From the IMG/VR virus record IMGVR_UViG_3300025151_000082, positions 1-43,175 of that record: 43,175 nucleotides of DNA; one strand, given 5' to 3'. The stretch's first letter is position 1. The number at the start of each line of letters is the position of its first letter. This DNA is from a virus. This document shows positions 1 through 43,175 of this stretch, piece after piece. The notes below the pieces were generated by a model. It worked only from the letters and a program-made list of their open reading frames with translations, had not been told where the DNA came from and made no database searches. Made by a program: the position numbers and the translations under genes.

Positions 1-275
1 AATGCAAGTATAAATGGCCCATTTCTAACCAATCTTGGTTATATCCAACTCTACTATCATAGCAATGCTTAATATACCTTGTCAACATACTAAAGTTAAA
101 CACATCATATGGCCAACCTAACCATAAATCAGACGACCTCATATTAGCATGACAGTCTAATTTATTATCTCGTATAGTCCACTGTAAGTTTAGTGTACAT
201 GGTACATCTTTTGTTATACGTGGTTGTTCTCGCCAGATATTACATACAGCTTGTCTTGTATTTTTATCCCTTATT
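1..275. repeat. Left copy of an imperfect end-to-end duplication
   Basis: This segment aligns in the same orientation with 42898-43175. Identity is roughly 90% by eye and higher over the inner 215 bp. One 6-nt length difference keeps the reading frame. Both copies encode the central part of the ThyA-family protein. The mismatches mean it is not an exact assembly overlap or an exact terminal repeat. It could reflect strain variation at a circular join, or tandem paralogues. Confidence 0.85.
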
Positions 276-604
276 AATTTATCAACAACATAACACGACT
301 GATCTACAAACTTAGGACCATAAGCCCCAAAGAATGTAAGATTGTCGTCTGAATAATCACTAATTGTTTTTGAATAAGGTGATATTGACTCTACTCTATT
401 ATCACCAGTTAAAATCCAATATGCTTCTGCAGCCATGAATTTATAACCTAACTTCCTCTTTTTTATTGTTAAGATCGGGTAATTCATATTTATAACAGTA
501 GTCTTAGTAAGTTCATAAGTTTTATATCCTCTAGGACTTATTGGTCTACCATGTTCTACTACTTCTTTTAATGTCTCGATCCAAACATCATTAACATATT
601 GCAT
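1..604 (-). CDS. ThyA-family pyrimidine (hydroxy)methylase, probable dCMP hydroxymethylase; 3' end off the left edge
   Basis: The first 201 codons are present, from ATG at 604, and the frame runs off the window edge. The fold is that of thymidylate synthase and dCMP hydroxymethylase, which transfer a one-carbon unit from methylene-tetrahydrofolate to C5 of a pyrimidine nucleotide. Visible motifs: Glu60 in AEAYWIL, GAYG (93-96), catalytic Cys136 in VPCTLNLQ, and RSSD (156-159). WLGWPYD follows, ending in Asp167. Thymidylate synthase has Asn at that position (E. coli N177), whereas T4 dCMP hydroxymethylase has Asp. ISDYS (81-85) has Ser where E. coli has Trp80. Both differences favour dCMP as substrate and hydroxymethylation as outcome; this is inference from the family. 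The start overlaps the upstream kinase stop by 14 nt. A homologous C-terminal half lies at the right edge. Confidence 0.85.
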   Translation of the reverse strand, partial: MQYVNDVWIETLKEVVEHGRPISPRGYKTYELTKTTVINMNYPILTIKKRKLGYKFMAAEAYWILTGDNRVESISPYSKTISDYSDDNLTFFGAYGPKFVDQSCYVVDKLIRDKNTRQAVCNIWREQPRITKDVPCTLNLQWTIRDNKLDCHANMRSSDLWLGWPYDVFNFSMLTRYIKHCYDSRVGYNQDWLEMGHLYLH

Positions 605-1580
605 GTTTAAGTGCCTCCACTAAATTAACTTTTTTAAATCGCTTAACATACGACGGATGCGGTAACTCTTTATGAATAGCGATTCCATGTTCAGTTACGG
701 CATCGGCCGCATGTCCCCCGAGAGTAACTACCTTAAGCGCCTCAGCCAGGTAGCCTATGTGTTTATTAAATTTACCGTCATGGTCAAAAGCGTTACACCA
801 CATAAGTTTATGTTCATCTATACCAGCCTCATGTAAACACTCAGTTAAGTATAAACTACTATTCTTGTGTTCATAGAAAGGCCAGAACAGCTCACGACTC
901 TTAGGGTTAACTTGCTCTCCAACTATAAGGTATTTTGCGCCATCTAAATGGCCTGCAACATTCCACTCGTTATGTTCTAACGCAGGTGGGTATTGTAATT
1001 CTTGTCTAAGTGATGCAAAATCAATAACTTGTTCTGCATATAAATCTAAATAGTGACCGTGTTCTGCTATGCAGTATCGTTTGTGGTCTCTTAGGTCTTT
1101 AACTCCGCCTGACCTAATTAAATAATCTATGTAGTTACCTTTATCTTCGTGTGACTGGCAACCATACCATAGTTTGTTATATAATACTGAAACATCTGAC
1201 ATATCATCATACATTTCGTATCTACTTTCTTTTAATCTTACAAATCTTTTATTATGTTTTTTATCAGGTAAGCAGTATACATAAACTGCACCTAACTTGC
1301 GAGCTATACGATCTGCTAAGCGACCTTGTAATGGCCAAGCGCTGCCATTACGAAAGACAGAGGAGTAAACCGCCTCAGAAGGCCACCATCTATCTATTAC
1401 CACCGGTACGGTGCTACGAGATGCAAAACGTATAGCCGCAGTATGGTAGTCGAATATTTTATCCTTCCACCTATAACCTAAGTGTAGGTACTTACCTGAA
1501 AGTTGCTTACACAACTCTCTAGCCAATGTGGTTTTCCCTACACCGTCAGGACCATCAAGAATGATGATTTGTCTGCTCAT
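591..1580 (-). CDS. dNMP (thymidylate-like) kinase fused to a uracil-DNA-glycosylase-like domain
   Basis: The protein has 329 aa from the ATG at 1580, which overlaps the MazG stop as ATGA; ATG 1586 is an alternative. Residues 1-150 form a P-loop nucleoside-monophosphate kinase: GPDGVGKTT (10-18) and DRWWPSEA (63-70), the latter like the DR motif of thymidylate kinases. Residues about 205-325 look like the UDG family 4/5 fold: VGEQ (220-223), CNAF (262-265), VTLGGHAADAV (285-295) and HPSYVKR (308-314). The usual first UDG motif (GExPG) is altered, so glycosylase activity is uncertain and the domain may only bind a base or nucleotide. It sits directly upstream of the ThyA-like gene, so it probably phosphorylates the product of that enzyme. 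The kinase call is firm and the C-terminal call is moderate. Confidence 0.8.
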   Translation of the reverse strand: MSRQIIILDGPDGVGKTTLARELCKQLSGKYLHLGYRWKDKIFDYHTAAIRFASRSTVPVVIDRWWPSEAVYSSVFRNGSAWPLQGRLADRIARKLGAVYVYCLPDKKHNKRFVRLKESRYEMYDDMSDVSVLYNKLWYGCQSHEDKGNYIDYLIRSGGVKDLRDHKRYCIAEHGHYLDLYAEQVIDFASLRQELQYPPALEHNEWNVAGHLDGAKYLIVGEQVNPKSRELFWPFYEHKNSSLYLTECLHEAGIDEHKLMWCNAFDHDGKFNKHIGYLAEALKVVTLGGHAADAVTEHGIAIHKELPHPSYVKRFKKVNLVEALKHAIC

Positions 1581-1927
1581 ACACAATCCTCTAAGTTAGG
1601 TTTTTTCCAACCTACAGGTTTAGAAATACCTGACTTAAAAGTTACGTCTTTGTCACGTACTTTCTTCATGTTAGCCTCATGTACCTTTTGCCATGCTTTA
1701 GAAAAATCATAACCATGTAGAATAGATGTACCGATCGCTATATAGACTAGGTCAACTATTGCATCAAGTTTATCTTCATGTGTTTTTGCATGACAGTATT
1801 CCCAAAGCTCTTCAATCATATGTGTAAAACGTTGCTCATGATAAGTCTTACTTAAAAACTTACCTTTTTTAGGGCAATCCATTTCAAACTTATTAAGAAA
1901 GTCTCTGACGTCTTGTTCTAAGGACAT
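1577..1927 (-). CDS. MazG-like all-alpha nucleotide pyrophosphohydrolase
   Basis: 116 aa. The ATG at 1927 is chosen because GGAG lies 7 nt upstream; 1939 is an in-frame alternative without a clear ribosome site. EELWE (39-43) and DAIVDLV (54-60) give the ExxE/DxxD metal-binding pattern of the MazG/HisE superfamily, followed by the family's typical EANMKKV segment (85-91). Such enzymes split dNTPs or NTPs into the monophosphate and pyrophosphate. Upstream of a dNMP kinase and a ThyA-like enzyme it could clear an unwanted canonical dNTP (dCTP or dUTP), as T4 gp56 does for dCTP. It could equally be a house-cleaning or (p)ppGpp-related MazG. It overlaps the methyltransferase end by 10 nt and the kinase start by 4 nt, so the genes are probably translationally coupled. 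Confidence 0.8.
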   Translation of the reverse strand: MSLEQDVRDFLNKFEMDCPKKGKFLSKTYHEQRFTHMIEELWEYCHAKTHEDKLDAIVDLVYIAIGTSILHGYDFSKAWQKVHEANMKKVRDKDVTFKSGISKPVGWKKPNLEDCV

Positions 1928-2766
1928 AATTGTCTCCAATCTTCAGACGAGGACCAACGACCCTCAATATCAGGTAAACTATTAAACAATCTACCATATG
2001 TTTCGTTAGTTGCTGTTTTAGTCAACTCCCAAATACAGTTACGTGAGTGCTGAGGAAACATAGGGGCAAAGATCGTAGACAAATAGTTAGTATCGTAATA
2101 CTCCCTAAACTTCTCAAAAACATAACTTAAGTTTGGGTCTGTTTCAACCATATGTTTATAATCTTTGATACTAGCGAAAGTACCCCAATGACCTCTGATT
2201 CCAAAGCCTACATCTTCAATCATAGCTCCTAATGCTTGATAAGTCATTTCGTTGATATGATTGTTAGCAGCACCTACATCTGGGTCCCAGCAAGGTGTAC
2301 TAATAAATGCAGTACCTTCTACTTCTAATAGTTCATATATTTTACCTAGCATGCGTCTAGCATGTTCAGGCGCTACATGTTCTAGCACTTCAAAACATAC
2401 AATCGTGTTAGGTGGTTCGTTAAAGTCTTTAGTACCTAAAGTACAAATATCTGTACTACCTGCTAGCTTAGGCTTCCAACCAGCCTTAGCAAATTGATCT
2501 GGCATCGTTAATTTGTTAACATCGACTGCATAATACTCAGATGGTTTCATGCGTGATGAATGCATTAACTTAGCTAGTGGTATCTCTTTACCACAACCGA
2601 TATCTAAGACACGTGCTGTAGCATAACGCTTTTGATTCATCAAATGCTTGGTCACGTGAGTCCATCTTAAACAGTGAGCTATATAGTCACGATGTAAGAA
2701 CCCTCTTGACTCCGCACTATCGATCGATAGCATAGTCTTGTCAATCTTCCTCTTAGGGTTTGGCAT
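1918..2766 (-). CDS. Class I SAM-dependent methyltransferase
   Basis: 282 aa from the ATG at 2766, preceded by GGAGGAG and overlapping the upstream stop as TAATG; an in-frame ATG at 2793 is less likely. Motif I is VLDIGCG (53-59), with YYAVDV following as the acidic strand-2 motif. CFEVLEHV and the FISTPCWD strand are typical of small-molecule or Methyltransf_11/23 type enzymes. No DPPY/NPPY or PCQ motif of adenine or cytosine-C5 DNA methyltransferases is visible, so ordinary DNA methylation is not supported. The neighbours are nucleotide-metabolism genes, so a modified nucleotide or base is one possible substrate. A cell-wall, lipid or protein substrate cannot be excluded. Confidence 0.8.
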   Translation of the reverse strand: MPNPKRKIDKTMLSIDSAESRGFLHRDYIAHCLRWTHVTKHLMNQKRYATARVLDIGCGKEIPLAKLMHSSRMKPSEYYAVDVNKLTMPDQFAKAGWKPKLAGSTDICTLGTKDFNEPPNTIVCFEVLEHVAPEHARRMLGKIYELLEVEGTAFISTPCWDPDVGAANNHINEMTYQALGAMIEDVGFGIRGHWGTFASIKDYKHMVETDPNLSYVFEKFREYYDTNYLSTIFAPMFPQHSRNCIWELTKTATNETYGRLFNSLPDIEGRWSSSEDWRQLCP

Positions 2767-40476: not shown

Positions 40477-42335
40477 TCTATATTCCCCCAGTTAGGTCCA
40501 ATCTCTACATCTACCTTTAAAGGTAATTCAAGTTGAACACAATTTTCCATAATTTCTCTTGCTAATATCAGATCCTGATTGTTATCAAAAGAAAAATCTA
40601 TCTCGTCATGCACAGTAAGTTGTGGTGTAATACCGTTCTCATGTAATTCTATCAATGCTTGCTTCATCATATCAGCTGATGAACCTTGTATTAAAGCATT
40701 CAATGCTTTATGTGTGTAAGCTCTACGTAATGGTCTACCTTTCCATACTTTTTGTGCAGCTTCATGGTTTAATGGTATCTCTTTGTTCGGCCATTTATTT
40801 TTAAAGTCAGCTGGTTCCCACATACAAAAATGTCTGTGTCTACCGAGTAATGTTCTTACAAGACCGCGTGTACCTGCTGCTATAGAACATTCTTGTGCTA
40901 ATGCTCTAACAAATGGTACTTGTTGATGATACTGTTCGAACAACGGTTTAGCTTCTTCCATAGTCATGTTAAGTTGTTGCGAAAGCTTAAAAATTCCCAT
41001 ACCATAAAACATACCTAAATTGATCGTTTTCGCTTCCTTTCGGGGGATACCTGCCATTTCGGACACAATTCGATGGAAATCTGCGTTTGGATCGTTTCTA
41101 AATTTCTCAACTGCCTCTTCAGCACCTCGTAATTTTCTTAAATAAGCATAGTGTAATAGTACTCTAGGTTCTTGTTGTGAATAATCTAGACAAGCCCAAT
41201 GTTTACCTTCATCAGGTATAAATAAACTTCTAACTAATTCATCATCTGGTATTTGTTGTAAATTAGGATTACTAGAACTAAAACGACCTGTACGTGTACC
41301 TTCTGAATCTTTTCTTAACTGGTGAAACTGTGTATAAATACGTCCGTTATGCGAGTGGTTTAAGCAAATACCTTCTACAAAATCTCGTCGCATTTTACAA
41401 GCTCTTCGCCATTGTGCTATCTTACGAGGAAATTCATGCTCATGGTTTTGTAACCAATCAGATACGAATGATGGGTTTCCTATTGCTGTCTTAGGGTACC
41501 ATATACCCATCGAATCAAACGCTTTTGCCATTGAGTCATTAGACCATAAGTCTATAATCATTCCACAATCTTTTCTGATCTGTCGTAGCTTATGTACTTC
41601 TTCGTTAAGCATTCTGTCATTTAATTGTTCAGCAGCATACATATCTATAGCAACACCCCTAAACCTCATGTCTAAAACAACGTGTAATAATTTTGACTCT
41701 AGTTCAAATATCTCCCACAAATCTTGTGCTTTTAGTTTAATCTTTTGTAAGTCCCAAATACGTAATGGTAGTTCTGCATCAGCTTCAGCATATGGACCTA
41801 CATATTGAGCAGGTAGTTTCCATAAACCTGACTTAGGGTCTACTTTGTAAATAGTAGCAACTTGTTTAAGCATTTCCTCATCTTTACCTTTATCTAAGTA
41901 ACGTTTAGCAAGTGCTTCTAAACTATAACCACCATCTAATTCTTCATTCATTAAAGGTTCAGCAATTTGGATATCACGTAGTGTACCTGTAACCTCTACA
42001 CCATTAACACGTAACCATTCAAGATCGTATAAGACATTTGCACCAACATACTCTATATTTCTGTTAAAGATATCCTTAGCCCAACGTAATACTCTTTGTT
42101 TATCCATATTACCTTCAGGATGACCTATTGGGAAATAACCCTTAAAACCTGTATCTGTACATATAGATATACCAATTAACTTACCATCATTGCGCACGCC
42201 ACCTGGCCCTAACGTCATTAAGTTAGGATCGTGTGTCTCTACATCAAAAGATATTATCTTAGCATCTTTAAGTTCAGGCAGTTCTCTCGGTGGCTTCCAA
42301 GAGGACTTTGGCAAGAACATGTTCAATTGGTCCAT
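40473..42335 (-). CDS. Family A DNA polymerase with 3'-5' exonuclease
   Basis: 620 aa, chosen from ATG 42335 because the exonuclease motif begins soon after and AGGAG lies upstream. Exo I is FDVET (Asp31, Glu33), Exo II GANVLYD, and Exo III near YAEAD (182-186). Polymerase motif A is CLDYSQQEPR (Asp384). Motif B is RKEAKTINLGMFYG (Arg432, Lys436, Leu440). Motif C is VHDE (575-578). There is no 5'-3' exonuclease domain. The residue equal to E. coli Phe762 is Leu440. This is the replicative polymerase. Its first 62 nt overlap the deaminase end. Confidence 0.95.
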   Translation of the reverse strand: MDQLNMFLPKSSWKPPRELPELKDAKIISFDVETHDPNLMTLGPGGVRNDGKLIGISICTDTGFKGYFPIGHPEGNMDKQRVLRWAKDIFNRNIEYVGANVLYDLEWLRVNGVEVTGTLRDIQIAEPLMNEELDGGYSLEALAKRYLDKGKDEEMLKQVATIYKVDPKSGLWKLPAQYVGPYAEADAELPLRIWDLQKIKLKAQDLWEIFELESKLLHVVLDMRFRGVAIDMYAAEQLNDRMLNEEVHKLRQIRKDCGMIIDLWSNDSMAKAFDSMGIWYPKTAIGNPSFVSDWLQNHEHEFPRKIAQWRRACKMRRDFVEGICLNHSHNGRIYTQFHQLRKDSEGTRTGRFSSSNPNLQQIPDDELVRSLFIPDEGKHWACLDYSQQEPRVLLHYAYLRKLRGAEEAVEKFRNDPNADFHRIVSEMAGIPRKEAKTINLGMFYGMGIFKLSQQLNMTMEEAKPLFEQYHQQVPFVRALAQECSIAAGTRGLVRTLLGRHRHFCMWEPADFKNKWPNKEIPLNHEAAQKVWKGRPLRRAYTHKALNALIQGSSADMMKQALIELHENGITPQLTVHDEIDFSFDNNQDLILAREIMENCVQLELPLKVDVEIGPNWGNIE

Positions 42336-42753
42336 GTTTAATCCAACTCCTATTCCATATTTTTCGTCCTGAATTAGGATAGCTTTGTAAGAAAACTATC
42401 GTCTGACAAGACGTGTTTAATAATAACTTAGTACAACTAACGCATGGTGCTGTTGTAACATAAGCTGTCCTAATTTCATCTACATTCTTACATTGTAAGA
42501 TAGCATTTTGTTCTGCGTGTATAGCAATACAATCATCTAGACCTTCTCCAGATCTATGATCAGCTCCCGAGCACGGTGTCTCACTACAATGTGTCTCACC
42601 AGAAGCAACACCATTATAACCAGTTGCTAATACTCTAGCTCTTTTGTCAACTAATACGCAACCTACTTTACGTCGTACACAAGTACTACGTTGTGCAGCA
42701 AGTACAGCTAGTGCTAAAAAGTATTCAGACTTACTTAGTCTTTGGCCACTCAA
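42274..42753 (-). CDS. dCMP deaminase
   Basis: 159 aa. The cytidine deaminase-type zinc site is HAE (79-81) and PCVSC (103-107), with the N-terminal LAALAQRSTCVRRKVG-like strand typical of dCMP deaminases. CSETPC is a further Cys pair in the T4-type insertion. It converts dCMP to dUMP. In a phage with a dCMP-directed ThyA-family enzyme the two would compete for dCMP. The start lies 23 nt inside the ThyA-like gene. Confidence 0.9.
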   Translation of the reverse strand: MSGQRLSKSEYFLALAVLAAQRSTCVRRKVGCVLVDKRARVLATGYNGVASGETHCSETPCSGADHRSGEGLDDCIAIHAEQNAILQCKNVDEIRTAYVTTAPCVSCTKLLLNTSCQTIVFLQSYPNSGRKIWNRSWIKHGPIEHVLAKVLLEATERTA

Positions 42754-43175
42754 AACCTGTCTCCCTTAAGTTAAATAATATACTCTTTAAACTGTTAACA
42801 TCTTTTGAATTTATCACTGGTTCTATATGTCTAACAGGTTCTTTAATACATGCTTCAGCTTGTTCTATATCAGTTTTGTATAAGTGCATACAGCTTGAAT
42901 GTAAGTATAAGTGGCCCATTTTTAAACCATTGTTATCTTCCCAAAATCCAATTCTACGATCGTAGCAATGTTTAATATACCTTGTCAACATACTAAAGTT
43001 AAATGTATCATAAGGCCAACCTAACCATAAATCAGACGACCTCATATTAGCATGGCAATCTATCGTATTATCTCGTATAGTCCACTGTAAGTTTAGTGTA
43101 CATGGTACGTCTTTTGTTCTACGTGGTTGTTCTCGCCAAATATTACATACAGCTTGTCTTGTATATTTATCCTCT
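42731..43175 (-). CDS. ThyA-family enzyme, second fragment; 5' end off the right edge
   Basis: The C-terminal 147 or so residues are present, open to the edge. They correspond to residues about 112 to the end of the left copy's family. VPCTLNLQ (catalytic Cys), RSSD, LGWPYD with the same Asp, and the C-terminal MHLYKTDIEQ (HxY motif) are intact. The two fragments differ at about one residue in seven over the shared part. It is followed closely by dCMP deaminase. Whether it is the same gene as the left fragment (circular join) or a paralogue cannot be decided here. Confidence 0.85.
   Translation of the reverse strand, partial: EDKYTRQAVCNIWREQPRRTKDVPCTLNLQWTIRDNTIDCHANMRSSDLWLGWPYDTFNFSMLTRYIKHCYDRRIGFWEDNNGLKMGHLYLHSSCMHLYKTDIEQAEACIKEPVRHIEPVINSKDVNSLKSILFNLRETGFEWPKTK
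42898..43175. repeat. Right copy of the imperfect end-to-end duplication
   Basis: Homologous to 1-275 in the same orientation, with about 90% identity by eye and a 6-nt length difference. See the left copy. Confidence 0.85.

Follow-up and report, generated by a model that had tools for sequence, protein, structure and literature searches.

A UDG-superfamily domain fused to a thymidylate kinase-like protein in phages with a probable cytosine-replacement module

Introduction

Why should a phage nucleotide kinase carry a domain of the uracil-DNA glycosylase (UDG) superfamily, a group of DNA repair enzymes? The question is raised by a viral contig of 43,175 nucleotides (IMG/VR record IMGVR_UViG_3300025151_000082; this whole stretch is called the window below), in which one gene encodes a deoxynucleoside monophosphate (dNMP) kinase followed by a UDG-like domain. 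Phages that swap a base of their DNA for another must exclude the wrong pyrimidines, and little is known of how they do so beyond the action of a dCTPase and the choice made by the polymerase. The fusion is conserved among several phage groups that are not related to one another, a distribution that points to an as yet unstudied step of quality control or coupling in the synthesis of modified DNA, and a cytosine-type hydroxymethylase is encoded nearby wherever the diagnostic residue can be read, which makes the question of wrong pyrimidines directly testable. A literature search, with Iyer et al. (2013) and Lee et al. (2018) outside the comparison, found no published description of a kinase-UDG fusion. 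Here, we describe a computational analysis of the two halves of this protein, its distribution among phages, and the genes that surround it.

Results

The fusion protein contains a complete kinase

The fusion gene occupies positions 591..1580 on the minus strand and encodes a protein of 329 amino acids that starts MSRQIIILDGPDGVGKTT, an open reading frame borne out by full-length homologues. An AF2 model of the whole protein has a pLDDT of 89 and a pTM of 0.89. Residues 1-205 (966..1580, minus) are a complete P-loop kinase of the thymidylate kinase (TMPK) type. This half matches PHROG 761, thymidylate kinase, with an E of 1.8e-12 and the YorR structures 2axp and 3kb2 by profile with an E of 5e-14, and its model aligns with thymidylate kinases at a Z of about 14. 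The features examined for membership of the TMPK-like family are all present: a Walker A motif (GPDGVGKTT, 1527-1553, minus), a DR(Y/W/H) motif (in the TMPK-type form DRWWPSE, 1374-1394, minus) and the fold. The likeness to YorR and the phage thymidylate kinases of PHROG 761, in sequence as well as fold, is that of the kinase half; YorR has no UDG domain, and its solved chains comprise only 171-173 residues.

The C-terminal domain has a UDG fold

The remaining residues, approximately 206-329 (591..965, minus), form a domain that is a member of the UDG superfamily by fold and homology. Pfam family PF03167 (UDG) matches residues 213-316 with an E of 4e-4 in the whole protein and 5e-5 in the domain alone, at a score of 23.8 bits that lies half a bit under the curated cut-off of 24.3, and the same family is matched by 11 of 21 aligned fusion members. 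A sequence search of the PDB with the domain gave weak UDG matches (E about 0.3-0.5) ranked under cathepsin noise; the assignment rests on profile and fold comparisons. A profile of the phage domains aligned with one built from 79 family-4 UDGs of bacterial and archaeal genomes at an hhalign probability of 96.5% (E 9e-10); 30 column-shuffled profiles gave 1% or less, and thymidylate synthase (TS) and kinase profiles gave 0.2-4.5%. The window and AXL3 clades (see below) by themselves reached 95.7%, and the DSL-LC01 clade by itself reached 37% against the family-4 UDGs and 98.9% against the window clade.

Because a structural search with the full-length protein was swamped by kinases, the domain was modelled and searched alone (AF2 model m13b03535002a, pLDDT 85, pTM 0.83). 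Its best structural matches are UdgX and family-4 UDGs, at a Z of 12-13 over 131-134 residues, with Foldseek E values against these structures of 1.5e-5 and up; the Z against MUG, TDG and SMUG is 9-10. It is practically certain that the gene encodes a kinase-UDG fusion with a UDG fold. The initial annotation, which had read a family 4/5 UDG pattern (VGEQ, LGGHAADAV, HPSYVKR) behind a complete thymidylate kinase-like domain, is thereby upheld: all three motifs occur in the open reading frame, profile and fold bear them out, the predicted structure is that of a UDG of the family 4/UdgX type, and the fusion to a dNMP kinase recurs in several unrelated phage groups. Its span of 591-1205 for the fused feature was too wide, as positions 966-1205 encode the C-terminal part of the kinase domain.

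Family-4 pocket residues are kept, and the Fe-S cysteines and one loop are lost

In the profile alignment the phage motifs pair one to one with those of family 4: VGE with VGEGPG, PF with PF, WCN with ICN, LG..A with LG..A, and HPSYVKR with HPSYLLR. The motifs PF, N, HP and R are invariant in 79/79 family-4 UDGs and in 31/31 phage fusions (alignment A1), two groups that share about 20% identity, and the family-4 pocket residues Gly, Glu/Asp, Phe, Asn, His and Arg are kept in the main phage clades. The sequence VGEQ (residues 220-223; 912-923, minus) is a remnant of UDG motif 1, which reads GE(G/A/Q)PG in family 4 and GEQVN or GDxRN in the phage domains; GE or GD is retained, with the carboxylate of E222 being E or D across the 31-sequence alignment, and the P-G is gone. 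Residue F235 of WPF (residues 233-235; 876-884, minus) pairs with the invariant uracil-stacking Phe of family 4, and N263 of WCNA (residues 261-264; 789-800, minus) pairs with the Asn that recognises uracil; both are invariant in the 31 phage sequences. The stretch TLGGHAADAV begins at residue 286 (TLGG at 714-725, minus) and is followed by HPSYVKRF (residues 308-315; 636-659, minus), UDG motif 2, which carries the catalytic-type His and the Arg and is present as HP(S/Q/A)..(K/R)RF in all 85 complete, undecayed fusions.

The domain is also markedly reduced. It has about 125 residues, as against about 200 in UdgX and the family-4 enzymes. The alignment shows no counterpart in it of the four cysteines that hold the 4Fe-4S cluster of family 4, and the cysteines of the window's domain (Cys 56, 70 and 137) are not conserved. 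Of the iron-sulfur cysteines and catalytic residues that the initial annotation proposed to look for, catalytic-type residues are present and the cysteines are absent. The KCRPPxNR loop of family-4 UDGs, which forms part of their DNA-contact surface, is likewise absent from the aligned phage domain. UdgX is defined by a KRRIH insert with a covalent His109, and no counterpart of this insert was seen behind the Asn strand when the alignment was inspected by eye. Judged by the features that define the two groups (Fe-S cysteines and motif 1; KRRIH insert), the domain is neither a family-4 UDG nor a UdgX. With 14 K+R and 18 D+E residues it is mildly acidic, and because it is not basic, DNA binding by the domain is not evident. 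The UDG-like domain is under purifying selection: its dN/dS is mostly 0.04-0.15 and, in most pairs, no higher than that of the kinase half, a near-identical pair with a value of 0.78 being uninformative.

The fusion recurs among unrelated phages

Nineteen IMG/VR loci carry the fusion, some of them cut by contig ends, at 45-89% identity to the window. Besides the window clade, a second clade comprises gp29 of Stenotrophomonas phage AXL3, Pseudoxanthomonas phage PW916 and ctUtU524, alongside which stands locus L033, and a third consists of Actinomycetia phage DSL-LC01 and 65 IMG/VR relatives. A more divergent fusion is gp315 of Bacillus phage G (L032:2462-3457), whose UDG domain is longer and more canonical, with the motifs VAQNPGG, TNLVPYP and HPAYVKRF. 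The possibility that the window's protein is a chimera found in one sequence is ruled out by these many independent contigs and named phages, and database records in which AXL3 gp29 and related proteins appear simply as thymidylate kinases are corrected accordingly.

In Pelagibacter phages HTVC119P and HTVC200P, in MedDCM-OCT-S28-C10 and in ct3Et533, the corresponding place in the operon is taken by an orthologous kinase that lacks the domain. In two further loci (L011:5883-6803 and L012:4532-5452) the kinase is intact and the UDG domain is decayed, being shorter and without its motifs; this pair constitutes a natural loss experiment for the domain. The kinase-only orthologues and decayed copies together indicate that the UDG domain is an accessory of the kinase, retained for a function and yet dispensable. 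When the DSL-LC01 protein was compared with bacterial and archaeal genomes by a scan that reaches close relatives only, none emerged, and within that reach there is no evidence for a cellular or prophage version. Three other matches were set aside. That in Brevundimonas phage Kikimora is to a protein that is not a kinase-UDG fusion and that in Brevundimonas phage Marchewka lies outside any annotated gene on its strand, both being taken as chance; a human-faecal contig matching the phage G domain encodes an ordinary family-4-type UDG with its cysteines present.

The neighbouring genes form a probable cytosine-replacement module

The genes of interest around the fusion lie on the same strand. 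A MazG/PRA-PH-like NTP pyrophosphatase, probably an analogue of a dCTPase, lies at 1577..1927 (minus; PF01503, E 2.4e-7; PHROG 671), and a SAM methyltransferase of the same module lies at 1918..2766 (minus; PF13489, E 1.7e-12). The N-terminal part of a TS-family pyrimidine hydroxymethylase or methylase, cut by the contig end, is found at 2..604 (minus; PF00303, E 1.4e-19), its C-terminal part is found at the opposite end (42731..43174, minus), and a dCMP deaminase is encoded at 42274..42753 (minus; PF00383, E 5e-18). Within the TS gene the contig ends (1-269 and 42898-43172) share an overlap of about 270 bases with 88.7% identity, so the contig looks like a circular or permuted genome whose closure involves two strain variants; the TS query was a composite drawn from the two ends. 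In the window and AXL3 clades alike the gene order is methyltransferase, MazG-like pyrophosphatase, kinase-UDG, TS homologue, and dCMP deaminase. The methyltransferase adjoins the MazG-like gene in ct3Et533 as well; it may act further on the base or nucleotide, and the AXL3 copy was reported to be most similar to a Nitrospira protein (PMC7504290).

The TS homologue contains the catalytic Cys, and at the position equivalent to residue 177 of E. coli TS it has an Asp in both the N-terminal part (GWPYDVF) and the diverged, overlapping copy (GWPYDTF). The same Asp is present in all 89 loci that contain a kinase homologue and in which the position is readable. By alignment this residue is Asp in T4 gp42, the dCMP hydroxymethylase, and Asn in the SPO1-type dUMP hydroxymethylase (gp29) and in E. 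coli ThyA. Residue 177 is an experimentally established determinant of specificity for dCMP versus dUMP (PMC8670742, PMC5175136, PMC6400193), and its change from Asn to Asp marks contigs of cytosine-modified phages, in which PF00303, PF01503, PF00383 and PF14437 co-occur (PMC8670742); the same families occur around the window's fusion. The DNA of AXL3 resisted 35 of 37 restriction enzymes and was cut by TasI and Tru1I, whose sites contain only A and T (PMC7504290), a digestion pattern consistent with an altered C (or G). Taken together, the Asp at 177, the co-occurring families and the resistance of AXL3 DNA indicate that the module most likely replaces cytosine, and that the window derives from a phage with such a module is very probable. 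The Asp sets the base and not the choice between a hydroxymethyl and a methyl product; judged from sequence, the product is most likely a modified dCMP, either 5-hydroxymethyl- or 5-methyl-. The link to base modification made in the initial annotation is supported in this way, and the nucleotide is sharpened by the TS Asp to what is most likely a 5-substituted dCMP rather than hmdUMP; by the identity of the neighbouring genes, this 5-substituted dCMP would also be the substrate of the kinase.

Discussion

The arrangement of these genes suggests a cytosine-replacement pathway of the T4 type. The MazG-like dCTP pyrophosphatase would remove dCTP, the TS-family dCMP hydroxymethylase or methylase would generate a 5-substituted dCMP, and the kinase would convert this modified dCMP to the diphosphate, towards dCTP, with the dCMP deaminase as a further member of the module. 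We propose that the kinase in such a pathway gained a minimal UDG domain, devoid of an Fe-S cluster and equipped with a uracil-type pocket and a catalytic-type carboxylate and His, and that this domain could serve as a glycosylase-type proofreader coupled to precursor supply. Its targets would be U that stems from leaked dUMP, or 5-hmU produced by deamination of hmC or hmdCMP, in newly made phage DNA or among free nucleotides. TMPK-like kinases are lax and the deaminase yields dUMP, so that U-type nucleotides would be a predictable contaminant; with the pocket Asn and Phe and the catalytic-type His and acid kept, the domain is most simply read as one that removes U or 5-hmU. We regard a kinase for modified dCMP with an attached glycosylase domain that removes uracil-type bases as the favoured reading, with slightly less than an even chance of being correct. 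Recognition of a U-type base by the domain has about an even chance, and the prospects that it is catalytic in vivo appear equally balanced. Such a glycosylase may act on DNA or on free nucleotides; the latter is possible given the loss of the loop and Fe-S region and the mildly acidic charge, and a crystal structure of UdgX contains dUMP (6ajp). The stronger proposal, of a single polypeptide in which the making of modified dCTP is linked to glycosylase removal of the wrong pyrimidine (U or 5-hmU), whether at the fork or on dUMP and hmdUMP, is rather doubtful. Were it true, hydrolysis of free dUMP or hmdUMP would extend the UDG superfamily to a class of substrate that is new for it. More generally, the fusion would represent either a new form of proofreading, of the nucleotide pool or of DNA, or a further instance in which a UDG fold has been taken up by replication proteins of phages.

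From the invariant Asn of the pocket, the predicted base is of the uracil type, and excision of hmC is disfavoured. In hUNG, an Asn-to-Asp change at the equivalent position permits excision of cytosine. Among the anti-phage glycosylases Brig1 and Brig3, which also belong to the UDG superfamily and are tied to phage 5hmC (PMC11078745, PMC13160076) and which differ from the phage domain in being bacterial defence genes, Brig3 requires D127 for excision of 5hmC (PMC13160076), a residue that may correspond to the invariant Asn in the predicted base pocket of the phage domain. An hmC glycosylase is disfavoured both by this requirement for Asp and because it would attack the phage's own DNA.

Several observations speak against a glycosylase role, namely that the P-G of motif 1, the KCRPPxNR loop and the cysteines of the Fe-S cluster have gone, that the domain is not basic, the reading of motif 1 as VAQNPGG in phage G, the dispensability of the domain in the Pelagibacter phages and ct3Et533, and its decay in L011 and L012. 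A serious rival, and the main one, is that the UDG-like domain is non-catalytic and docks or tethers the kinase to DNA at the replication fork, a role that such domains may also have in other replication proteins of phages; the same losses (Fe-S cluster, one loop, part of motif 1) can be cited for it. The UDG of vaccinia virus, D4, is a processivity subunit of the polymerase. The kinase-fused domain of phage G is similar to the UDG-like N-terminal domain of the SPO1 DNA polymerase (E about 1e-6), in which the pocket Asn has been lost and replaced by Ser (TSIVKYP; L185:3462-4100), and the structural matches of the window's domain include a phage family-A polymerase with a UDG-like domain (9qhs, Z 10.7) as well as phage PolA models. 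SPO1 gp31 provides a precedent for a UDG-superfamily domain on a DNA-synthesis enzyme of a base-modified phage, although its partner is a polymerase, its modification is hmU, and its pocket Asn is replaced. Unlike the SPO1 domain, the kinase-fused domains of several clades invariably retain the Asn, the Phe, the His, the Arg and the carboxylate, and this counts against docking, which alone needs no such conservation; we consider docking a tentative possibility, short of an even chance.

That the domain is instead an allosteric or substrate sensor, controlling the kinase by non-hydrolytic binding of a pyrimidine nucleotide (dUMP, hmdUMP or hmdCMP), would accord with its attachment to a dNMP kinase and with the crystallisation of UdgX, its closest structural match, with dUMP (6ajp, among the structural matches found). 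A sensor has no need to retain a catalytic-type His and carboxylate, and we know of no sensor role in the UDG superfamily; we judge this improbable. Least probable of all is a module for thymine hypermodification of the 5-hmU type, with the kinase acting on hmdUMP or 5hmU DNA as in M6 or ViI. Database names, such as deoxyuridylate hydroxymethyltransferase in PW916, would suggest it, and other Mesyanzhinovviridae hypermodify thymine (PMC11946847). Against it stand the Asp at position 177 wherever this can be read, the cutting of AXL3 DNA at A/T-only sites while sites containing G/C resist, and the TMPK/YorR-like nature of the kinase.

The proposed replacement of cytosine resembles the T4 pathway (gp56 dCTPase, gp42, gp1 dNMP kinase and cd deaminase) in its logic, its gene set and its TS Asp, and differs from it in that the kinase is of the TMPK/YorR type and bears a UDG-like domain and that no glucosyltransferase was identified within the window. 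Sugar genes were seen in other phages with the fusion. The neighbours of phage G gp315 include an alpha-glucosyltransferase, together with a TS homologue that has the Asp at 177. In DSL-LC01 (L027:18298-20300) a glycosyltransferase and a UDP-galactopyranose mutase are encoded at a distance of about 8-9 kb from the fusion, a possible hint that the modified cytosine bears a sugar.
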